Source of the DNA: an uncultured Chloracidobacterium sp.
GTDB taxonomy: Bacteria; Acidobacteriota; Blastocatellia; Chloracidobacteriales; Chloracidobacteriaceae
DNA: 40,387 nt
Reading direction: 5' to 3'
Assembly (NCBI GenBank): GCA_937966115.1
Contig: CALCKX010000016.1
Span: forward strand, 1-40,387
Positions 5,458-35,282 of this stretch are shown here, in pieces. Made by a program: the position numbers and the translations under genes. The notes beneath the pieces were generated by a model. The model was not told where the DNA came from. It was given only the letters and a program-made list of their open reading frames with translations, and searched no databases. Position 1 is the first letter of the stretch, and each line of letters opens with the position of its first letter.

Positions 5458-6456
5458 ATGAACCAGCGTGAACGCGAACAAGCCATCGCCGCCTTAGCCG
5501 GGCAGCGCATCCTGGTGCTGGGCGATGTCATGCTAGATGAGTTCTTCTGGGGCAGCGCCCGCCGCATCGCCCCTGAGGCGCCCGTTCCGGTGGTTGAAAT
5601 CGAGCGCGAAAGCTATGTTTTGGGCGGCGCGGCCAACGTTGCCGCCAATATCCGCGCGCTTGGCGGCGTGCCGCTCGTCGTTGGCGTCGTCGGAGATGAC
5701 CTGGCCGCCGAACACCTGCGCGACGCCCTGCTGCGGTGGCACCTCGAATGGCACGGGCTGGTCGTGGACCCCGACCGCCCGACCACGCGCAAGACGCGCG
5801 TCATGGTCAATGCCCACCAGATGGCCCGCTTCGACCGCGAATCCCGGCAGCCGATTGCTAAATCCATCGAAGCCGCCATCATCGCCAAAGTGGAGGAATG
5901 GCTGCCGCAGGTCGCGGCGGTCGCCGTTTCAGACTATGACAAAGGCGCGCTCACGCCGCGCGTTCTCCGGCAGGCGCTCGTGGCGGCCCGCCGGCGCGGG
6001 CTGCCGGTCGCGCTCGACCCCAAGCCGGCGCGCTTCGCCCGCTATCAGCCGGTGACCATCGTCACGCCTAACCACCACGAAGCGGCTGCCGTCGCCCAGT
6101 CGCCGATCACTGACGACGCCTCGCTCGGCGGGGTCTGTCGGCGCCTGTCGGCGATGCTGGGCGATGCCCATATCCTCGTGACGCGCGGCGAGGCCGGCAT
6201 GACGCTTTATGAAGCCGCCGGCCGCCTGCGGCACATCCCGGCGGCAGCGCGCGAGGTCTATGATGTCACCGGCGCCGGCGATACGGTGCTGGCGACCCTG
6301 ACGCTCGGCCTAGGCGCGGGACTGTCGCTGCGCCACTCCGCGGAACTCGCCAATCGCGCCGCCGGGGTCGTGGTCGGCAAGCTCGGCACCGCCACGGCTC
6401 GCCCCGACGAGCTGCTGGCCGGCCAAGCCCGCGTCGCGCGCCGCCCGGCGCGTTGA
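5458..6456 (+). CDS. rfaE1: D-glycero-beta-D-manno-heptose-7-phosphate kinase (RfaE1/HldE kinase domain)
   Basis: A PfkB/ribokinase-family sugar kinase of 332 residues from the ATG at 5458. The N-terminal family region runs RILVLGDVMLDEFFWGSARRI, then PEAPVPVVEIE and GGAANVAANIRALGG. The C-terminal catalytic anion hole with its Asp base is DVTGAGDTVLATLTLGLG. This pattern is diagnostic of the RfaE domain I, which phosphorylates heptose-7-phosphate at C1 on the route to ADP-heptose for LPS. The protein ends after the kinase domain, so the cytidylyltransferase-like domain II of HldE is not fused here and must be separate. Longer upstream in-frame starts (5335) add a non-conserved basic stretch and are rejected. 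Confidence 0.9.
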   Translation: MNQREREQAIAALAGQRILVLGDVMLDEFFWGSARRIAPEAPVPVVEIERESYVLGGAANVAANIRALGGVPLVVGVVGDDLAAEHLRDALLRWHLEWHGLVVDPDRPTTRKTRVMVNAHQMARFDRESRQPIAKSIEAAIIAKVEEWLPQVAAVAVSDYDKGALTPRVLRQALVAARRRGLPVALDPKPARFARYQPVTIVTPNHHEAAAVAQSPITDDASLGGVCRRLSAMLGDAHILVTRGEAGMTLYEAAGRLRHIPAAAREVYDVTGAGDTVLATLTLGLGAGLSLRHSAELANRAAGVVVGKLGTATARPDELLAGQARVARRPAR

Positions 6457-23947: not shown

Positions 23948-24784
23948 TTACTTTTTAGGGACGGGGGAAGCCACGAGCCGAAAGCCGATGTTGTAGTTGC
24001 GCGAGTTGGATGGAAGCGGGCGGTTGGAAGCTGGATAAATGACTTCCGGCGTGACGTCGCTCGGCGGGCTGTCGTACGCGCCGCCGCATACAAACCCATC
24101 GGCGCACCATTCCCAAACATTGCCGCACATGTCGTGCAGGTCGTATCCGTTGGGCGCTTTGCTACCCGCCGGCTGAGGTGTGCCCAGCGAATTTCCCGCA
24201 TGCCAGCTCTGCGTTTCGCGGTTGAAGCCCAGCTTCGCCGCCAGCCACCACTCTTCCGAAGTCGGCAAGCGGTACGTCACGCGCGGATCGTTTTCCAGGC
24301 TGTTGAGCTGGCTAATGAACAATCTGATGTTATCCAGCGAGACATTGGTCACCGGCAAGTCAGGCCCCTTGCGACGACTTGGATTGAACCCCATGACTTT
24401 TTCCCACTGCGCCTGAGTCACTTCGTGCCGACTGAAGTACAGCGTTTTCCCATTGATGGATACAGGAACCATGGTCAGGTTGATGGAGCTCGCCAGAAAC
24501 GGGCGAAGGGGCGATGACGGCGCGGGCGGCGACGATGAAATGATCGGAGGCGCGGACTTGGGACGTCGGGCTGAGGCGGGAGGCGTGGGCGGCCGCGTGG
24601 GACGAGGCTTGAACGGGTTGTCACCCTGTGGCCTGGCGCTGACCGTTACCGGCTTGCCGAACGACAAAGTTAGCAGAGCGAAGGCGCAGTAGCGGGCCAA
24701 TCGCCGCCCCTTCCAGGCTGGAGTCGCCGCCCTGGGCTTGGCGACAAGCTTGGCGACAATTGGTGTCAAGCCTGGCGCGGTCAT
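23948..24784 (-). CDS. Exported FGE/sulfatase-modifying-factor-like protein (B)
   Basis: A 278-residue paralogue of protein A. Its start overlaps the kinase stop (ATGA), so the two are translationally coupled. After a basic N-terminus and hydrophobic segment (about 29-50) comes the shared mature motif QGDNPFKPRP, a Pro/Ser-rich linker, and an FGE-like domain: YFSRHEVTQAQWEKVMGFNPS, YRLPTSEEWWLAAKL, LHDMCGNVWEWCADG, CGGAYDSPP and YNIGFRLVAS. As in A, the loop after WEWCAD is very short, the RGG is changed to CGG, and active-site cysteines of formylglycine-generating enzymes are not evident. Likely a periplasmic or surface non-catalytic domain working with the upstream kinase (inference). Confidence 0.8.
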   Translation of the reverse strand: MTAPGLTPIVAKLVAKPRAATPAWKGRRLARYCAFALLTLSFGKPVTVSARPQGDNPFKPRPTRPPTPPASARRPKSAPPIISSSPPAPSSPLRPFLASSINLTMVPVSINGKTLYFSRHEVTQAQWEKVMGFNPSRRKGPDLPVTNVSLDNIRLFISQLNSLENDPRVTYRLPTSEEWWLAAKLGFNRETQSWHAGNSLGTPQPAGSKAPNGYDLHDMCGNVWEWCADGFVCGGAYDSPPSDVTPEVIYPASNRPLPSNSRNYNIGFRLVASPVPKK

Positions 24785-26658
24785 GGCTGCTGACCTACGC
24801 GGGGAATATCCTTGACGCAGCGAAAGCCGAGCGCCCGATCGCGCGTGTCGGGCGGAACCTGCGCTCGCCGCGTGGCTGAGGCGTACTTCCGAGTTAGCGA
24901 AAAGGCCCCGCCACGCACAATTTTGGCCCCCAAATCCGGCTTGTAGGCGCTGCCTTCATACGCCGTATCATCCGAGGCCGTCCACTCGGCGACATTGCCG
25001 GCGAGGTCGAGAACCCCTTCCGGCGTCGCGCCGCTGGGAAAGCTTCCAACGGGTTGGCTGCGCTTGATTTTGGCTTCCTCCGAGTTGAGTCGGCGAGGAT
25101 CGAATTCGTTGCCCCATGGATACTTTCGCCCCTCCGGGCCGCGGGCCGCGAATTCCCACTCCGCCTCCGTTGGGAGACGCTTGCCGGCCCAAGCGGCATA
25201 GTCGCAAGCGTCTTGCCAGGAGACATAGGTGACAGGGTGCGTGGCTTTTCCGGGGGGATAAGAGCCTTTCACCCAATCCGTCGGCAGTTCCCGACGATTC
25301 GTCGCCCTGACAAACGCTTCGTATTCCTCCTGGGTGACTTCGCGCTGGTCTATGAAAAATGGCGCCACCACAACGCGGTGGCTGGGCTTTTCCGATAGGT
25401 TTTCCGCCGCGTCATCGCCCATCGCGAATACGCCGCCCGCAATGAACGCCATGCCCGGCGGCGGCAAGATATTCGATGCGCCCCTTCGATCCGGCTCCGA
25501 TCCCGCTTTGGAGTTGGGTATCTGGTCATCCGACTTGACGTTCGCCAGTCGCTTGCCAGGGCTTGGGGAGAGGGTCTGCCAGGCGACGCCCCCGGCCACA
25601 AGAAGCAAAGCCAGTCCGGCAGCGACGCTGAGCATCGTAATGAGCAGCCGCGATGACGGCGTTGCGCGCCTGCCGCCCGCTTGCCCTTGGAGCTGGTTGA
25701 TGATGTCGGTCACGCCGCTGGTTGGCGTGGGGCCAACCGGTGGATTGGACGCTCCCGTCCACGCAGGAGTCGGCGTTGCGACCGACGGGTTCAGCGCGAC
25801 CGCGAAGCCAGCAGACAACGGCGGAATGGCGATCGGCCCGCTGCTGAGCGCCGCTTGAATGGCCGCCGCGAAATCGCGGGCGGTTTGGTAGCGTTCGCGG
25901 CCGCTGTGCCGAATCGCGACGTCGAGGGTGTCCGCCAGCATCGGCCGAACCTGCGGCGCGGCGGCGCGCCACACGACCTCGCCGCTGAGCGGGTCGATCA
26001 GCTCGCCCGGATGTCGCCCGGTCGCCAGCATGATGGCGGTCATCCCCAGCGCGTAGATGTCGCTGGCAAAGGTCGGTCGCCCGGCGGCTTGCTCCGGCGG
26101 CATGTAGCCTTTGGTGCCAGCCAGGATGGTGTTGACCGCGCCGCTGCCGTCCGTTGGAGTCACTTCCTTGACAATGCCGAAATCAATGAGCGCCAGCTGA
26201 CCGCTGCCGTGGCGTAGCATGATGTTGTCCGGCTTGATGTCGCGGTGAATGATGGGCGTCGGGCGCGTGTGGATGTAATCGAGCGCCCGCAACGCGCCAA
26301 GCAGAACGAAGACTAGCGTCGCCTCCGGCTGCGGCCCTTCCCGCGTCAGCTTCTGGGTCAGCGTTTCGCCGTCAATCCACTCCTGGACAAGGTAATATTG
26401 CTCGCCTTCGATAAAATAAGCGTAAAGCTCTGGAATGCTCCCTTGCGAGCCGCGCCCCAGCAGCTCAAGCAGCGCCGCCTCGCGCTTGAACCGCTCGCGC
26501 ACGATAACCGCCATCTGCGGATTCTGATTCCACGTCAGGCGCTTGATGACGCAGCGCCGATTCGACGGCGAATGCAGGTCTTCCGCCAGGTAGGTTTTGC
26601 CAAACGCTCCGCTGCCTAGCTCGTGGAGTAGCCGATACTGATTTTTGAGAAGCGTCAT
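24781..26658 (-). CDS. Transmembrane Ser/Thr protein kinase with C-terminal FGE-like domain
   Basis: A 625-residue one-pass receptor-like kinase. The N-terminal Hanks-type kinase domain (about 8-270) has the Gly loop LGSGAFGKTYLA, K39 in CVIKRL, the catalytic HRDIKPDN (D140), D159-F-G and GTKGYMPPEQAAG, so it appears active. A Pro/Ala linker leads to one TM helix (about 338-360, LLITMLSVAAGLALLLVAG). Outside is an FGE-sulfatase-type domain (about 400-617): MAFIAGGVFAMGDDAAENL, DQREVTQEEYEAFV, RLPTEAEWEFAARG, KYPWGN, LAGNVAEWTASDD, KIVRGGAF and GFRCV. The extracellular module lacks the paired active-site cysteines of formylglycine-generating enzymes and is probably a sensor or binding domain. 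The two exported FGE-like proteins follow directly. Confidence 0.93.
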   Translation of the reverse strand: MTLLKNQYRLLHELGSGAFGKTYLAEDLHSPSNRRCVIKRLTWNQNPQMAVIVRERFKREAALLELLGRGSQGSIPELYAYFIEGEQYYLVQEWIDGETLTQKLTREGPQPEATLVFVLLGALRALDYIHTRPTPIIHRDIKPDNIMLRHGSGQLALIDFGIVKEVTPTDGSGAVNTILAGTKGYMPPEQAAGRPTFASDIYALGMTAIMLATGRHPGELIDPLSGEVVWRAAAPQVRPMLADTLDVAIRHSGRERYQTARDFAAAIQAALSSGPIAIPPLSAGFAVALNPSVATPTPAWTGASNPPVGPTPTSGVTDIINQLQGQAGGRRATPSSRLLITMLSVAAGLALLLVAGGVAWQTLSPSPGKRLANVKSDDQIPNSKAGSEPDRRGASNILPPPGMAFIAGGVFAMGDDAAENLSEKPSHRVVVAPFFIDQREVTQEEYEAFVRATNRRELPTDWVKGSYPPGKATHPVTYVSWQDACDYAAWAGKRLPTEAEWEFAARGPEGRKYPWGNEFDPRRLNSEEAKIKRSQPVGSFPSGATPEGVLDLAGNVAEWTASDDTAYEGSAYKPDLGAKIVRGGAFSLTRKYASATRRAQVPPDTRDRALGFRCVKDIPRVGQQP

Positions 26659-28077: not shown

Positions 28078-28180
28078 CGCGCGCACTCACTTCGAAGGAA
28101 AAAGGCAGGGGGACCGCTTGCCGCCTGCCTTCAACCTACCGAACTTGCGCCGATCGGGCAAACCGTTTCGCGCGTCGCCG

Positions 28181-28200
28181 CTCGCCCGCAGTCGGGCGAG
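28181..28200 (-). terminator. Stem-loop downstream of the 40-residue membrane protein gene
   Basis: CTCGCCCG (28181-28188) and CGGGCGAG (28193-28200) form a perfect 8-bp stem with a 4-nt loop, 20 bp beyond the small gene's stop on the minus strand. No T-tract follows, so it may be a partial terminator or processing site before the DUF92 gene. Confidence 0.45.
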
Positions 28201-28220
28201 GCTCGCCGAGCCGAAGCCCT

Positions 28221-28343
28221 TCAGCTCAGAAACAAGAGCATTTTGACGAACAGCTTGGGTATGTAATTGCCAAACGCGCCGATCAGGCAAATCGCCAGCA
28301 ATACGCCAAACCAAGCCCAAGCGACCTTGCTGATGTCTTCCAT
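28221..28343 (-). CDS. Small single-pass membrane protein, 40 residues
   Basis: Below usual length cut-offs but well supported. The ATG ending at 28343 is preceded on the minus strand by a near-perfect Shine-Dalgarno GGGAGGA at about 8-nt spacing, and a TATAAT box lies about 50 bp upstream. The protein begins MEDISKVAWAWFGVLLAICL and continues with IGAFGNYIPKLFVK and MLLFLS: an acidic N-terminus, one helix rich in Trp, Leu and Ile, a YIPK turn and a second short hydrophobic stretch. No family is recognised. It is transcribed in the same direction as the prenol-kinase fusion and kinase genes, separated by a hairpin. Possible roles include a subunit of a membrane complex or regulatory micropeptide; none is shown. 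Confidence 0.7.
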   Translation of the reverse strand: MEDISKVAWAWFGVLLAICLIGAFGNYIPKLFVKMLLFLS

Positions 28344-28393
28344 GACAACATCCTCCCTTCGCTTTCGAGAAGTCGAATATGGGACGCCATGCG

Positions 28394-28399
28394 ATTATA
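28394..28399 (-). promoter_or_regulatory. TATAAT -10 box for the small membrane protein gene
   Basis: A perfect TATAAT on the minus strand lies about 50 bp before the 40-residue protein's start, giving a leader of roughly 44 nt. No good -35 hexamer is found at 16-18 bp (nearest is a TTCACA at 21 bp). The region also holds an AT-rich break in an otherwise GC-rich sequence, supporting a real promoter. Confidence 0.5.
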
Positions 28400-28515
28400 A
28401 AGTTAGCACAGCGGGCGCTGTGTGAAAGATGACCTTTTTTCCGCTGGCTTGTGCTACAAGGCAATTTCGGCCGGCGGTTGTCGGCCGGCATCTGGGCAAA
28501 GGCTCTGGAGACGCG

Positions 28516-29343
<828 letters not shown>

Positions 29344-29353
29344 GTTGCCGATA

Positions 29354-30526
29354 ATGCTTCGCCTTACGATTCGCCAAGTCATTTGGCTCAGCATTGCCGT
29401 TTCGCTGATCGGGGGCGGCGGGATCACGGTCGCGGCCTATTTCGCCGCCAAGTGGCTGGACGCGCGGCGCGTGGCCCCGGCCGTGTCTCCAACCGTCAAC
29501 TCCGACCCGCTTCCCGACGCCGAGCCGCCCCTGCAGCTCGACGCCGATGAGCGCAACAACATTACGGTTTACGAGCGCGTCAGCCCTGGCGTCGTCAATA
29601 TCAACACCACTTCTTTCGTCGAGGACTTCTTCTTTGGCGCCTATCCGCAGCAGGGCAGCGGGTCTGGCTCGATCATTGACGCGAAGGGCCACATCCTGAC
29701 CAACTACCACGTCATCGAGGGCGCGAATCGCTTGGATGTGACGCTGTCGGACAATACGTCCTATCCGGCGACGGTGGTCGGCGCCGACCCCGATAACGAC
29801 TTAGCCATCATTCGCATTCAGGCGCCGGCGGAGCGTCTGCGCGTCGTGCCGCTCGGCTCGTCCCGCAATCTCAAGGTCGGGCAGAAAGTGCTGGCGATTG
29901 GCAATCCGTTCGGTCTGAGCCAAACCCTCACTTCGGGCATCATCAGCGCCCTGGGGCGGCCGCTGCGCAGCGAAAATGGTCGCACCATTGAAAATGTCAT
30001 TCAAACCGACGCTTCCATCAATCCCGGCAACTCCGGCGGGCCGCTGCTCAACTCAGCCGGCCAGATGATTGGCATCAACACGGCGATTTATTCGCCGCGC
30101 GGCGGGAGCGTCGGCATAGGCTTCGCCGTGCCGGTTGAAGTTGCCAAGCAGATCATTCCCGACCTGCTCGAATTCGGCCGCGTGCGCCGGCCCTGGCTTG
30201 GCATCACCAATACCTATCAGCTCAACGCCAGACTGGCGCAGCGACTCAACCTGCCGGTCAGCGAGGGATTGATTCTGACGGGCATCGCGCCGCGCGGCCC
30301 AGCGGCCCAGGCCGGACTCTATGCCAGCGACCGAGTCATTCAGCGCGGCGGGCAAATCGTGATTGGCGATGTGCTCGTCAAGGTGAGCGACGCGCCCATC
30401 AAGTCCAATGAAGACCTATACCGGTCGCTTCGGGACAAGAAGATTGGCGATACCTTGCCGGTGACGGTCATTCGCGCCGGGCAGCCGCTGACCGTTGATG
30501 TGACGCTTCAGGAGCGTCCAAGCTAG
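29354..30526 (+). CDS. Membrane-anchored trypsin-like serine protease (HtrA/DegP family)
   Basis: A 390-residue protease. An N-terminal TM/signal anchor (about 8-31, IWLSIAVSLIGGGGITVAAYF) is followed by the S1C protease domain with the triad H119 (TNYHVIEG), D149 (DPDNDLAII) and S227 (NPGNSGGPL), and one PDZ domain (about 290-385). This is the DegS/DegP-like architecture used in periplasmic protein quality control or envelope-stress signalling. The single PDZ and anchored N-terminus make it more DegS/HtrA-like than two-PDZ DegP. The ATG at 29354 was chosen over the upstream ATG at 29249, which adds a stretch overlapping the SDR end. Convergent with the zinc-ribbon gene. Confidence 0.92.
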   Translation: MLRLTIRQVIWLSIAVSLIGGGGITVAAYFAAKWLDARRVAPAVSPTVNSDPLPDAEPPLQLDADERNNITVYERVSPGVVNINTTSFVEDFFFGAYPQQGSGSGSIIDAKGHILTNYHVIEGANRLDVTLSDNTSYPATVVGADPDNDLAIIRIQAPAERLRVVPLGSSRNLKVGQKVLAIGNPFGLSQTLTSGIISALGRPLRSENGRTIENVIQTDASINPGNSGGPLLNSAGQMIGINTAIYSPRGGSVGIGFAVPVEVAKQIIPDLLEFGRVRRPWLGITNTYQLNARLAQRLNLPVSEGLILTGIAPRGPAAQAGLYASDRVIQRGGQIVIGDVLVKVSDAPIKSNEDLYRSLRDKKIGDTLPVTVIRAGQPLTVDVTLQERPS

Positions 30527-30717: not shown

Positions 30718-31107
30718 TTAGGCCGCGGTCGGCGGCAAATACTTGACGACCGGCTTGACGCAGACCGGCGCTGTAACCTGCGCCCGAACGAAGCAGTCCC
30801 GGCACAAGACGGGACGCCCCTGCGTTGGCAAGAAGGGCACCGTGGTCTGGATGCCGCACTCCGCGCATTCAACCTCGACTTGAATGCGGGGGCGGCTACC
30901 GTCGGTCGCCATCATGCTCAGCAGTTGATTGAAGCGCTCGTTCTTGCGCGTTTTGCAGGGTTTGCACCGCTTTGGCGGATTTTTCAAGCCCTTGTCAAAG
31001 AAAAATTGTTGCTCTCCAGCGGTGAAGACAAATGGCGCCCCGCACTCAACGCAGGTGAGGGGAATGTCTTCAAACGCTGGAGCGGTCTTCTTGTCCTCGG
31101 CTTCCAT
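30718..31107 (-). CDS. Double zinc-ribbon protein
   Basis: A 129-residue soluble protein with two cysteine-quartet ribbons. The first is C19-x2-C22 ... C48-x2-C51 (CVECGAPFVFTAGEQQFFFD to RCKPCK), matching the 'probable zinc-ribbon' zf-trcl pattern. The second is C81-x2-C84 ... C102-x2-C105 (CAECGIQTTVPFLPTQ to VLCRDCF), matching CxxC-x17-CxxC zinc-ribbon proteins. Role unknown; such small ribbons often bind nucleic acid or partner proteins. The ATG ending at 31107 has an AAGGAG about 11 nt upstream on the minus strand; an ATG ending at 31116 would add three residues but leaves only 2 nt to the same site. A longer frame to 31299 has no ribbon-like sequence before this point. Confidence 0.85.
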   Translation of the reverse strand: MEAEDKKTAPAFEDIPLTCVECGAPFVFTAGEQQFFFDKGLKNPPKRCKPCKTRKNERFNQLLSMMATDGSRPRIQVEVECAECGIQTTVPFLPTQGRPVLCRDCFVRAQVTAPVCVKPVVKYLPPTAA

Positions 31108-31337
31108 AGTGACCATCGCTCCTTGCGTGTTTCTCCCTTCGCTTCCGCAAACTGGCTTCCGCAGACTGCGAAGCGCGGGGGTTGCCCTGACCGATACTTC
31201 CTCTGGCGACACCATCCGACACGGCGACGGCGAGAAGCTGTGGAAAAGCCCTCCCCGCGCGGCCGCGACCGCTCGGTGGCACCTTACCCCCTTGCTCATT
31301 CTTGCTGAATCTACGAAATCTTTTTTGGACAGCTATT

Positions 31338-31366
31338 TATCTATTGAAGGCTAAAGTAACTGTCAA
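31338..31366 (-). promoter_or_regulatory. Candidate promoter of the zinc-ribbon gene
   Basis: On the minus strand a perfect TTGACA (31361-31366 in plus coordinates) is followed 17 bp later by TAGATA (31338-31343), inside an AT-rich break. The implied leader to the zinc-ribbon start is about 215 nt, longer than usual, so a second promoter closer in cannot be excluded. Confidence 0.45.
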
Positions 31367-31451
31367 GCCCCATTTCGAGTCGTCGCCACGACCGAAGATG
31401 CGGTGGTCGCGCCAAATCGTTGAATCCTTTCGGGTTAACCGCTAGCTCTCA

Positions 31452-31480
31452 TTGAAATCTTTTTTTTTGTTTGATTTAGT
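31452..31480 (+). promoter_or_regulatory. Candidate promoter driving the long leader of the radical SAM gene
   Basis: TTGAAA (31452-31457) and TTTAGT (31475-31480) are 17 bp apart on the plus strand, within an AT-rich stretch (a run of nine T) that stands out from the GC-rich surroundings. Transcription from here would give a leader of about 510 nt before the radical SAM start at 32001. Confidence 0.4.
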
Positions 31481-32000
31481 TGCTCAGAGCTAGTGTAGCT
31501 TCTTATGGGTTATTTACAGTCGCCTGTGGATGCTTTGTGGAACCGCGCCTTGCTTGACCAGCTTGCGCGGCGCGGGGGCGCGGTCAGCGCCAGCGACCCT
31601 GCCGCGTCGGTCAGCGCTGGAACGGGGTTGCCCTCCGGCGCGCCGCCGAGCGAGGCGGCGGCCGAGCGGGAGCTGACTCGCGGCCCGAAAGTAGGGTTGT
31701 CACGCCGTTTGTCGCCTACAGACGGTTTGCACGGGTTGGTCTTGACACCTCGCGGGGCAGCCCACAAGATGCGGGCGCATCAAAGAGCTCCTCGCGCGGT
31801 CTTGGGCTTTGAACTCAGACAGGCTTCTCGAAGAAGCCGCCTAGCTCAGAGCAGCCTGGCCGCCGCTGGCCTGAGGGGCGTCGGCGATGCGGATTGCGCT
31901 GCGCTCGCAGGCTGCGGCGCGCGCAACCATAGGTCGTCGCCCGAAATCGGAATCCATCACCGGGGAATCACTACACCCACATAGGAGAAGCACAGGACTC
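31481..32000 (+). other. Gene-free leader/RNA region before the radical SAM gene
   Basis: Together with 31117-31480 this makes an 884-bp interval without a convincing gene. The longest plus-strand frame here (31505-31984) translates to Arg/Ala/Gly-rich sequence with no motifs. The stretch contains two copies of GGTCAGCGC (near 31584 and 31608) with a CCAGCG...CGCTGG pairing and a perfect hairpin GGCTTCT-CGA-AGAAGCC (31822-31838). RNase P, tmRNA and SRP RNA signature sequences were looked for and not seen. It could be a regulatory leader, a small RNA, or decayed sequence. Confidence 0.4.
31822..31838. other. Perfect hairpin in the radical SAM leader
   Basis: GGCTTCT (31822-31828) pairs with AGAAGCC (31832-31838) across a 3-nt loop, about 160 bp before the radical SAM start. 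It is not followed by a T-tract. Possible structural part of an untranslated leader. Confidence 0.4.
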
Positions 32001-34112
32001 ATGAAGCCCATCAAGCACGCCGAAAAAGCGTTGTCGAAAATTGCGGGAGGGCTATTCGCGGCTATTCAGTCGGTCAACAAGCATCGCCCGGCGCCTTCCT
32101 TCACCCCCAAGTGGTCGGACAAGCCCATGCTCAAGTCCTGGCAGAAGACAAAGCCGACGCTTGGCTGGCCACGCGTGACCGACTCGCTTTGCCCAAAGTG
32201 TGTCAAGGAGGCGCGCGAGAAAATCCTGAGCGGGGAAGCGGACTACACGATTCTCATCAACGAGCGCATCGGCGAGATAAAGGCTCACATCGTCAAGCGT
32301 CACAACCCGGAAACTGGGCGCGACGAGGTGTGGATGGAGAAGGAGTGCCCCGTCCACGGCAAGTTTGAAGACCTCATGGCGATGGACGCCAGCTTTCTCG
32401 CGCACATCGAGGCGCAGTTTCCGGGGCGCGACATTGACGCGCACAACGACGCCAAGCTGCACAATCACGGCACGAGCTCCATCAAGCACGGGCGCGGGTC
32501 GGTTCTGACAATTGACCTCACCAACCGCTGCAACATGATGTGCGACCCCTGCTTCATGGACGCCAACCAAGTCGGCTTCGTCCATGAGCTATCGCTCGAG
32601 GAAGTCAAGGAAATCCTCGACAACGCCATCAGCATCAAGCCGCGCCGGCAAATGTCGGTCCAGTTCTCAGGCGGCGAGCCGACGCTTTCGCCGCACTTCT
32701 TCGAGGCGATTCGCTACGCCCGCGATCTGGGCTACAACAGCGTCCAGTGCGCGACCAACGGCATCGAGTTCGCCAAGAGCAAGGAGTTTTGCCGCAAGGC
32801 GGCGGAGGCCGGGCTGCGCTACGTTTACCTTCAGTTTGACGGTATCGGCAACGACGCCAACAGTCACCGCCAGGTCGGCAACCTGTTTGACGTGAAGCTG
32901 CGGGCCATTGAAAACCTGCACGAGGCGGGCGTTGAGATCGTGCTGGTCGTGACGCTGGTCAATGGCGTCACGAATGACCAAGTCGCGCCGGTCATCCGCT
33001 TCGCGCTCGACAATCCGAAGAAGATCGCGTTCATATCGTTCCAGCCGGTGTCGTTCACCGGGCGCGATGAGGACATCACCGATGAGCGCCGCTTGCGACA
33101 GCGTTACACGCTGTCGCACCTCGCGCATGATGTCAAAGAGCAGGTGGGCATCACGGAGCCGACCCGCGACTGGTTTCCCATCTCCGTCATGAGCACGATT
33201 GCCGACTTCGCCGACCTTGCGCACGGACCGGAGGCGCAGTTTGGCCACCTGAGCTGCGGCTGCCATCCCAACTGCGGCGTCGGCACGGCCGTGATGATTG
33301 ACAAGGAAACCAAGGAGATGGTCCCGGTGCCGGAGTTTATCAATGTGCCGCAGCTCCTCAAGGATATGCAGGCCATCACGGATGCCGGGCGCGGGCGGGC
33401 GTTTTCATCCTTTATGATGGCGCTGTCGCTGCTGCGCAACTATGACGCCTACAAGTCGCCGACGCACTTCACGCTCAAGTCGCTGATCGAGAAGTTTGAC
33501 AAGTCGCTGGGCATTTCCGGGCGCGACTACGGCAGCGTGAAAGGCAACCGGACGCGCGAGGACATCGAGAAGCGTCGCCGCGACCGCTGGAACTTCCTCT
33601 TCATTGCCGGCATGTGGTTTCAGGACCTGTTCAACTACGATTTCCGCCGGACGGAAATGTGCATCATTCCCTACGGCACGCAGGAAGGCGAAATCTCCTT
33701 CTGCGCCTACAACACCGGGGTTGGCTGGCGGAACATCATCGAGGACATGCACAAGAACGCGACCGTGGCGAAGTGGTACAAGGAGCACGGCAAGCACGAA
33801 ATCTACGCCAAGGGGCGCAACGTCGCCTTGGCGGATGCGCCGTACACGCTCAACATCAATGCCGAAGATGCGGCGCGGACTCGTTCGCGCGATGAAGAGG
33901 CGCCCATGACCGCCGCCGAAGAGAAGCGGATGATGGAGAAGCTTTTCAAGGAAAAAGTCTTGGGCATCAAGAATGGCGAGACGAAGCTCGTACAGCTTGG
34001 TCGCTCGAGGAAAGCGACCGCGAGCGGCAACGGCGCGGTTGCCCCGCCGGCGCAAGCCAGCGTGGCGGTCGCGGCGGCGGGCGCGAGCGGCTCGCTGACG
34101 GCGAAGAAGTAG
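32001..34112 (+). CDS. Radical SAM protein of the tetraether/membrane-spanning lipid synthase (Tes/MJ0619-like) type
   Basis: A 703-residue radical SAM enzyme. The N-terminus has a rubredoxin-like Cys site (C64-x2-C67 and C116-PVHG). The SAM [4Fe-4S] motif is C177-x3-C181-x2-C184 in TNRCNMMCDPCF, then SGGEPT (213-218) and the QFDGIG strand. A third Cys cluster, HLSCGCHPNCGVGT (C419, C421, C425), and a C-terminal pair, MCIIPYGTQEG and FCAYNTGVGWR (C554, C568), match the layout I know for the archaeal tetraether synthase Tes (MJ0619/MA_1486), which joins lipid tails tail-to-tail by radical C-C coupling, and for related bacterial radical SAM proteins. A Pro/Ala-rich tail (about 670-703) is extra. 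Start ATG at 32001, with AGGAG about 12 nt upstream. A substrate such as iso-diabolic-acid precursors is inferred, not shown. Confidence 0.82.
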   Translation: MKPIKHAEKALSKIAGGLFAAIQSVNKHRPAPSFTPKWSDKPMLKSWQKTKPTLGWPRVTDSLCPKCVKEAREKILSGEADYTILINERIGEIKAHIVKRHNPETGRDEVWMEKECPVHGKFEDLMAMDASFLAHIEAQFPGRDIDAHNDAKLHNHGTSSIKHGRGSVLTIDLTNRCNMMCDPCFMDANQVGFVHELSLEEVKEILDNAISIKPRRQMSVQFSGGEPTLSPHFFEAIRYARDLGYNSVQCATNGIEFAKSKEFCRKAAEAGLRYVYLQFDGIGNDANSHRQVGNLFDVKLRAIENLHEAGVEIVLVVTLVNGVTNDQVAPVIRFALDNPKKIAFISFQPVSFTGRDEDITDERRLRQRYTLSHLAHDVKEQVGITEPTRDWFPISVMSTIADFADLAHGPEAQFGHLSCGCHPNCGVGTAVMIDKETKEMVPVPEFINVPQLLKDMQAITDAGRGRAFSSFMMALSLLRNYDAYKSPTHFTLKSLIEKFDKSLGISGRDYGSVKGNRTREDIEKRRRDRWNFLFIAGMWFQDLFNYDFRRTEMCIIPYGTQEGEISFCAYNTGVGWRNIIEDMHKNATVAKWYKEHGKHEIYAKGRNVALADAPYTLNINAEDAARTRSRDEEAPMTAAEEKRMMEKLFKEKVLGIKNGETKLVQLGRSRKATASGNGAVAPPAQASVAVAAAGASGSLTAKK

Positions 34113-34195
34113 CTGAAGAAGCAGCTACAGCGAGGTAGCCGCCGCGCCAGCCCTGCTGGCGGGGCTTCGGCGCTGAAAGCGAGTGACAAAATTCG

Positions 34196-34227
34196 GCGGC
34201 GCGCTTGATGCGCGCCGCCGCTTTTGT
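34196..34227 (+). terminator. Rho-independent terminator after the radical SAM gene
   Basis: A perfect 11-bp GC stem CGGCGGCGCGC (34196-34206) / GCGCGCCGCCG (34212-34222), loop TTGAT, followed by CTTTT, lies 84 bp after the stop. A smaller hairpin CGCCAGC-CCT-GCTGGCG precedes it at 34147-34163. Good evidence that the radical SAM transcript ends before the nuo operon. Confidence 0.85.
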
Positions 34228-34415: not shown

Positions 34416-35282
34416 ATGTCTGACGAGACGAAGCCGGCGCCAGAAGCGGGGTCCTCGGGTGTTGACGCCGAGCGGGCGGCGAAAGTAGCGGCTGCCAAAG
34501 CCAAGGCGGCCCGCGAGGCGGCTGGCGAGTCCCCGGCGACGGCTGAGCCTGCCCCGGCTGACGCCGACAAGTCGGTTGACGCTGAGAAAGAGGCCAAAAT
34601 CGCGGCTGCCAAAGCCAAGGCGGCCGCGGCCAAGGCGGCCCGCGAGGCGGCTGACGAGGGCGGCGAGACGCCTAAGCCCGCGCCCGCCAAGGCGCCAGCC
34701 AAAGCCGCCGCCAAGGCCCCGGCCAAGAAGGAGGCGGCGCCAGCCTACGCGGAAATCACGGGCGACGCTTTCATTGCCGCGCTTCGGGCGGTCTTTCGGG
34801 ATGACATTAAGGAGGCCGTCACGAGCAACGGTCAGCAGATTGTTCGGGTTGTCCCGGAGCGCGCCCGCGACCTGCTCTGGTATTTGCGCTATGACGCAGC
34901 CATCCGGTTTGATCTGCTGACGGACGTCACGGCGGCGCACTATCCCGACCGCAAGGCTTTTGAAGTCGTCTATCAGTTGTATTCGATTGCCGACAACCGC
35001 CGGCTGCGCGTCAAGGCCGAGCTTCCCGAAGACCAATCCATCTACACGGTGTGCGACATCTGGACGACCGCCAACTGGCTGGAGCGCGAGGTGTACGACA
35101 TGTTCGGCATCACGTTCGAGGGGCATCCCGATTTGCGGCGCATTCTGCTCCCCGAGGGCTGGGTCGGCTTTCCGCTCCGCAAGGAGTATCCGGTTGAATA
35201 TCGCCACAACGAGTGGGTGACAGAGAACCTGAACATCCTTGAAATCCCCGAAGGGGCTGACCTGACCGGCAAGTTTGATTGA
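34416..35282 (+). CDS. nuoC: NADH-quinone oxidoreductase subunit C (NuoC) with long Ala/Lys-rich N-terminus
   Basis: A 288-residue peripheral-arm subunit of respiratory complex I. The 30-kDa-type core (about 110-285) has the family pattern YDAAIRFDLLTDVTAAHYPD, the YQLYSIADNRRLRVK strand, and the signature ANWLEREVYDMFGITFEGHPDLRRIL ending in RKEYPVEY (shown here in part). The first about 105 residues are unusual: low-complexity Ala/Lys/Glu/Pro sequence containing two copies of a repeat (about 16-36 and 54-79, each with AAAKAKAA and AAREAA). E. coli has NuoC fused to NuoD; here they are separate. It is first in the operon; nuoA and nuoB are not upstream. Confidence 0.93.
   Translation: MSDETKPAPEAGSSGVDAERAAKVAAAKAKAAREAAGESPATAEPAPADADKSVDAEKEAKIAAAKAKAAAAKAAREAADEGGETPKPAPAKAPAKAAAKAPAKKEAAPAYAEITGDAFIAALRAVFRDDIKEAVTSNGQQIVRVVPERARDLLWYLRYDAAIRFDLLTDVTAAHYPDRKAFEVVYQLYSIADNRRLRVKAELPEDQSIYTVCDIWTTANWLEREVYDMFGITFEGHPDLRRILLPEGWVGFPLRKEYPVEYRHNEWVTENLNILEIPEGADLTGKFD

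Follow-up and report, generated by a model that had tools for sequence, protein, structure and literature searches.

The 40,387-nucleotide stretch of DNA considered here (the window; contig CALCKX010000016.1 of assembly GCA_937966115.1, from an uncultured Chloracidobacterium sp.) carries on its forward strand, at 32001..34112, a gene for a radical S-adenosylmethionine (SAM) protein of 703 amino acids with the fold of Tes, the archaeal enzyme that joins lipid tails and forms no ether bond. Homologs of the gene occur in 80 named acidobacterial loci. By its sequence the protein belongs to a distinct clade, called clade A in what follows, which is placed inside the acidobacterial Tes group and outside the NCBIfam definition of Tes. 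The reading favoured here, with modest confidence, is that the clade-A protein is a variant of Tes that produces iso-diabolic acid, the membrane-spanning fatty acid of the organism; earlier work has suggested this role for such proteins, and it is unconfirmed. The fold, the invariant residues, the clade, its distribution and the pairing of its gene with Tes genes are observed.

The first-pass annotation, made from the sequence without database searches, had likened the protein to Tes of the MJ0619 type, and had named profile and structure comparison as well as phylogeny as ways to check this. With these comparisons run, the likeness stands for the fold and the residues of the catalytic site; it does not extend to the four-iron four-sulfur cluster of Tes called [4Fe-4S]N, the site of which is missing, and the score of 322.4 bits with the NCBIfam Tes model (NF045702) lies under its cut-off of 450 bits. 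In seven genomes of the genus no protein passes this cut-off, and the strongest matches to the model, at 315.6-322.2 bits, are those of clade A. The predicted structure shares its overall fold with GDGT-MAS/Tes (MJ0619, PDB 7TOL and 7TOM) over 419 residues; no family besides Tes is close in the structure comparison lists, where the absence of others proves nothing. The window protein is 32.1% identical to MJ0619 (221 bits), and the identity is 28-33% for clade-A rows and 37-45% for acidobacterial Tes rows. The NCBIfam models TrsS (NF045646; 208.7 bits, cut-off of 490 not reached) and NirJ1 (82.6 bits, cut-off 650) also match, as would be expected if the substrate were not a lipid, as in TrsS-type or heme-biosynthesis radical SAM proteins, but both matches are weaker than that with Tes and cover less of the protein, and such a substrate is decidedly unlikely.

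Conservation was read from 81 aligned sequences, the window protein and 80 named relatives; these are the best 80 of 575 confirmed relatives, are all acidobacterial, and say nothing on absence outside Acidobacteriota. The cysteines that the first-pass annotation had listed are all present in the 703-residue product, i.e., C64, C67, C116 (in CPVHG), C177, C181, C184, C419, C421, C425, C554 and C568. All are kept in 81 of the 81 sequences except C67, which is kept in 80, while the protein's two remaining cysteines vary, C250 being present in 14% and C264 in 70%, which argues that the listed ones are not there by chance. Their grouping into three clusters fares less well, as becomes clear when they are set beside the metal sites of MJ0619. 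In that enzyme a mononuclear iron is held by C9, C12, C33 and H36, the [4Fe-4S]N cluster by C73, C77, C80 and a His, and there is a separate radical SAM cluster; a third cluster, [4Fe-4S]C, on which a carbon-sulfur bond with the substrate forms, has a labile ligand, Met439, and lies next to Tyr459, a residue strictly conserved among archaeal homologs (Lloyd et al., PMC9433317). Sites were mapped by hand on an alignment with MJ0619 (chain numbering minus 20), and were mapped a second time with 62 proteins aligned; there MJ0619 has the same residue at the columns of C116, H119, C177, C181, C184, C425, M538, C554, Y558 and C568.

The claimed cluster C177/C181/C184 is the radical SAM motif C-x3-C-x2-C (32529..32552, forward strand, as are all sites of the protein below; PF04055, 81.3 bits; 81/81). 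C64, C67 and C116 are not a cluster: together with H119 they correspond to the mononuclear site of the homologous structure, a rubredoxin-type metal site (32190..32357) with a PF23545 zinc ribbon match of 43.9 bits over residues 58-127 and a CX2C...CX2H motif in 79 of 81 rows. The stretch of MJ0619 that holds C9 and C12 falls outside the alignment, and C64 and C67 are thus without aligned counterparts. Nor do C419, C421 and C425 (CGCHPNC, 33255..33275; 81/81) correspond to a separate cluster in MJ0619, since only C425 has a cysteine counterpart there, with C421 opposite a Ser and C419 opposite a Leu. C425 would instead be a ligand of the C-terminal cluster, preceded by two additional cysteines that do not vary, C419 and C421; the motif CxCHxxC is found in 81/81 clade-A rows versus 1/17 acidobacterial Tes. 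The rest of the C-terminal site (33612..33704; invariant in the 81 sequences, matched by column) consists of M538, at the position of Met439, C554, Y558, at that of Tyr459 and kept in 81/81, and C568, and the three cysteines C425, C554 and C568 are the likely [4Fe-4S]C ligands, with M538 as the labile one. Where Tes has its [4Fe-4S]N cysteines, clade A has an HxHG segment (H154, H156; 32460..32471), with H156 in the column of one of these cysteines in MJ0619. HxHG occurs in 79/81 clade-A rows versus 0/17 acidobacterial Tes, and the reverse holds for the [4Fe-4S]N motif CX3CG[LMI]C, present in 17/17 acidobacterial Tes and in 0/81 named, 0/13 divergent and 0/7 further clade-A rows. Searches of open-licence papers, read in passages, turned up no bacterial clade described as lacking [4Fe-4S]N.

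The placement of clade A follows from a maximum-likelihood tree of the 62 proteins (midpoint root, MJ0619 on a long branch). The clade of the window protein, with 38 rows, is monophyletic at a support of 100/100 and stands next to the acidobacterial Tes proteins L136 and L137 (99/84), with L135 following (100/99), and a group of 55 is split from MJ0619 and two more acidobacterial proteins at 100/100. All 11 acidobacterial Tes proteins L135-L145, from the same phylum as clade A, score above the NF045702 cut-off (472.0 to 619.1 bits). L135 carries the N-cluster motif together with CSCHTNCG, and of the latter motif the first cysteine is also present in L136 and L137, which suggests that the extra cysteine preceded the loss of the N cluster, i.e., that it was probably gained first.

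Clade A differs further from MJ0619 by a C-terminal extension and by an N-terminal one of 54 residues (32001..32162), which MJ0619, with its first ligand already at C9, lacks. The alignment and the structure model give a predicted helix over residues 3-26 followed by a Trp/Pro-rich linker, with F34, P36, W38, P42, K45, S46, W47 and K49 invariant in 58 aligned sequences. The amphipathicity of the helix is above that of shuffles (p<0.05) in only 39 of the 81 members, so that an amphipathic helix is no more than suggested.

From the analogy with MJ0619 we infer the occupancy of the clusters, the substrate and the product. The radical SAM cluster would generate a 5'-deoxyadenosyl radical that abstracts a terminal-methyl hydrogen of one iso tail, and the resulting carbon radical would be parked as a carbon-sulfur bond on the C-terminal [4Fe-4S] cluster, with M538 as the ligand that gives way. 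Attack on the parked carbon by another radical, produced from a second SAM, would then form an sp3-sp3 bond. Clade A would also reveal which of the metal sites of Tes are dispensable.

The distribution of clade A was determined with the window protein as query in a sample of genomes drawn at 90% completeness. In its own class 53 of 54 genomes give a match of E 2.5e-302 or better; only G345 falls short, with a best match of 7.4e-17, although it is 97% complete. The missing N cluster could be taken to mean that clade A is a catalytically inactive descendant of Tes, but the invariance of the residues of the radical SAM and C-terminal sites in 81/81 sequences, and a gene present in nearly all sampled genomes of the class, make this very improbable. 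In the rest of the phylum (341 genomes), 127 genomes reach E 1e-150 or better, 18 fall in the range from 1e-61 to 1e-149, and 196 give weaker matches; 12 of the 18 were searched again, and 11 of these matches are Tes (L135-L145) and one (G218) is a clade-A fragment. Counted by family, clade A is found in all genomes of 24, in none of 44 and in some genomes of 8 out of 76. With its distinctive sequence signature and its block-wise presence or absence in most sampled families, this well-delimited clade would offer both a concrete gene for expression or deletion and a marker for producers of the lipid.

This lipid is one of the primary fatty acids of Chloracidobacterium (PMC12816986). More generally, many acidobacteria have iso-diabolic acid as a major membrane lipid, and it is presumed to be the unit from which branched glycerol dialkyl glycerol tetraethers (brGDGTs) are built, which serve to reconstruct past temperature and pH (PMC13274423). 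For Mss, a bacterial membrane-spanning lipid synthase, the proposed reaction is the condensation of iso-C15 lipids into iso-diabolic acid lipids, and models of Mss are said to keep the catalytic architecture of Tes (same source). Edaphobacter aggregans, with 26.4% iso-diabolic acid (PMC11354219), has one Tes homolog at 32% identity, compared with 42% in Koribacter and 40% in Solibacter (Zeng et al., PMC8941075). Since 32% fits the clade-A range and not that of acidobacterial Tes, the E. aggregans homolog is probably a clade-A protein, with the reservation that the query of Zeng et al. was another archaeal Tes. Synthesis of brGDGTs by acidobacterial Tes homologs has been proposed before (Zeng et al., PMC8941075; Halamka et al., PMC10087280), and as late as 2025 the part played by bacterial Tes homologs in lipid synthesis is described as unconfirmed (PMC11868695).

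The pairing of clade A with Tes is seen in one acidobacterial family, f15, for which the Tes model was run against 60 genomes and the window protein against 12 of these as a further search. Full-length clade A is found in 51 of the 60 and pieces only in 5, one genome (G433) has Tes only, and 3 have neither. Tes above the cut-off occurs in 11 genomes, 10 of which also have clade A, and in 6 of these 10 clade A lies upstream of Tes on the same contig and strand, at gaps of ~0.25 kb (G243), 2.3 kb (G440), 2.6 kb (G423), 3.0 kb (G407), 5.7 kb (G065) and 10.9 kb (G415). G438 has a split clade-A gene, the end of which is situated ~6.5 kb upstream of Tes and on its strand, and in G404, G414 and G418 the two are on separate contigs.

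Such pairing would also be expected if clade A couples lipid tails and its physiological product is a brGDGT or another bolalipid made from diether or mixed substrates. Solibacter, which makes brGDGTs with no iso-diabolic acid according to PMC10087280, and the description of Tes and Mss as indifferent to ester versus ether linkage, point the same way. The lipid reported for Chloracidobacterium itself, however, is iso-diabolic acid, and PF09989, which we take to be part of Ger/PlsA, is found in 0/7 genomes of the genus, against 4 of the 14 controls with names (one of the four is Thermotoga maritima), with ElbD-type ether synthesis outside the search. A brGDGT or another bolalipid as the product is held to be unlikely. 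Of the claim that the protein is a synthase of membrane-spanning or ether lipids, the membrane-spanning half is likely and fits the kin of the organism, and the ether half lacks support, as Tes makes no ether bond and PF09989 is missing from the seven genomes of the genus. Iso-diabolic acid synthesis by clade A can be extended to a fuller but only tentative scheme, in which clade A is the enzyme still to be identified that makes iso-diabolic acid in aerobic acidobacteria, formed when a Tes first gained a cysteine beside the catalytic cluster, then dropped its surface [4Fe-4S]N cluster, perhaps in adaptation to oxygen, and added a membrane-associating N-terminal helix. Where its gene is paired with a Tes gene, the two would act in sequence: clade A would couple ester-bound tails and Tes would then complete the brGDGTs, the soil paleothermometer lipids.

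Genomes of the genus hold further members of the Tes superfamily besides clade A, two types of which were read. The first, L002 and L098, scores 305.1 and 310.7 bits with the Tes model and 301.1 and 305.5 bits with the TrsS model, under both cut-offs, and an assignment of L002 as a TrsS-like protein was rejected on this ground. L002 is 31.8% identical to MJ0619 (232 bits) and, by tblastn, 25% over 585 columns to the window protein of the same genome. It resembles the latter in superfamily and in its score with the Tes model, and differs in keeping the N-cluster motif CPHDCGLC and in its separate branch in the tree. At the positions of Met439 and Tyr459, L002 and L098 have Gln and Phe, and L103 and L106, of the second type, have a gap and Ile, where the window protein has Met and Tyr; L103 and L106 also have Asp in place of the last cluster cysteine. 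In G000, on contig C150, L002 adjoins an apparent SAM-dependent methyltransferase and a mercuric-reductase-like flavoprotein, both named by sight. The type of L103 and L106, which are fuller versions of L089 (G000 contig C145:3702-4103) and form with clade A and the L002 type the third Tes-superfamily type of the genus, keeps the N-cluster motif CPYDCGIC and has FDTFN where Tes has FCxYN; L089 is cut by the contig end and followed by a thioesterase-like open reading frame (ORF), again by sight.

These additional members, with L002 scoring so close to the window protein, and the altered metal sites of clade A (N site lost, CxCHxxC gained) leave room for clade A to perform another radical reaction on lipid tails, such as methylation, cyclisation or bolalipid cross-linking, while iso-diabolic acid comes from another enzyme, e.g., the L002-type paralogue. 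Against this, clade A retains the Met and Tyr residues of Tes, which L002 and L103 do not, and this division of roles is regarded as improbable.

Several points nevertheless weigh against clade A as the iso-diabolic acid synthase. A unique role for it is weakened by L002 being almost as close to the Tes model, and L002, with its N cluster kept and similar Tes scores, could from its sequence be the synthase. The [4Fe-4S]N site is missing, the CxCHxxC motif may have an effect of its own, and the conservation of M538 is supportive rather than decisive, since the M439A variant of MJ0619 is active and Met439 dispensable (PMC9433317). The predicted model is weak at the C-terminal site, with a predicted local distance difference test score under 50 for residues 543-605. 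The pairings in f15 are not independent events, since the genomes are related, and 4 of the 60 genomes there have no clade-A match. Clade A is absent from the families f27 (0/43), f44 (0/18) and f49 (0/16), and the link to the lipid is weaker if one of these is subdivision 6, for which iso-diabolic acid is reported too (PMC13274423). Finally, Solibacter usitatus is reported to have two Tes homologs and no iso-diabolic acid (PMC10087280).

The source genome is an 85% complete draft assembly in 151 contigs, and the closest named relative among the best 80 of 575 is Chloracidobacterium sp. CP2_5A, at 95% for the clade-A protein. An alternative in-frame start at 31887 would give 741 amino acids; 32001 is preferred because the relatives L005 (95%) and L006 (92%) align from residue 1. 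The long leader claimed for the gene is borne out: ~700 bases (31300..32000, forward strand, from ORF calls) separate it from a divergent zinc-finger ORF on the opposite strand (30718-31299; PF13451 and PF23477), and a search of this leader for a sigma-70-like site found none. The strong terminator is so only in part. Site scan and folding give a hairpin of 11 G-C pairs at 34194..34220 (no strand assigned), and the segment 34110-34235 folds at -72.1 kcal/mol (z -4.0), but the T run is short (CTTTT) and terminator-like sites in the region are no more frequent than in shuffles (4 observed, 4.0 expected).

Neighbouring genes at 81 loci, that of the window and 80 named ones, were grouped into families; 65 of the loci have at least six flanking ORFs. 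The commonest families, named by sight, are phosphoglucomutase-like (19/81) and small FtsB-like (17/81); a conserved operon as a clue to function was rejected, as no neighbour family exceeds 19/81 loci, and no plainly lipid-related one is among the 25 commonest, a judgement made from the N-terminal 70 residues only and with no profile scan. Long leader, hairpin and variable neighbours make it plausible that the clade-A gene is an independent transcription unit. In the window it precedes nuoC, nuoD and nuoH, which lie 3' of the hairpin; this neighbourhood is kept in L006, while L007 and L024 do not match the window outside the clade-A gene (the upstream flank of L024 is short). An Rfam scan of the window gave no family at gathering score, and 34 of 72,556 plasmid records have a match, none with >80% coverage. 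L048 has, at 5838-6116, a partial second copy of the clade-A protein (~first 90 residues), located close to the complete gene and in opposite orientation to it. The NuoC of the window (34416-35279, forward strand) has a long Ala/Lys/Glu-rich N-terminal extension with an internal repeat, its Complex1_30kDa domain beginning at residue 143. On the reverse strand, a 445-residue ORF at 28087-29424 with no Pfam match at E 0.001 adjoins a DUF92 membrane protein, and 24781-26655 encodes a fusion of a protein kinase domain with a formylglycine-generating-enzyme-type (FGE-sulfatase) domain.
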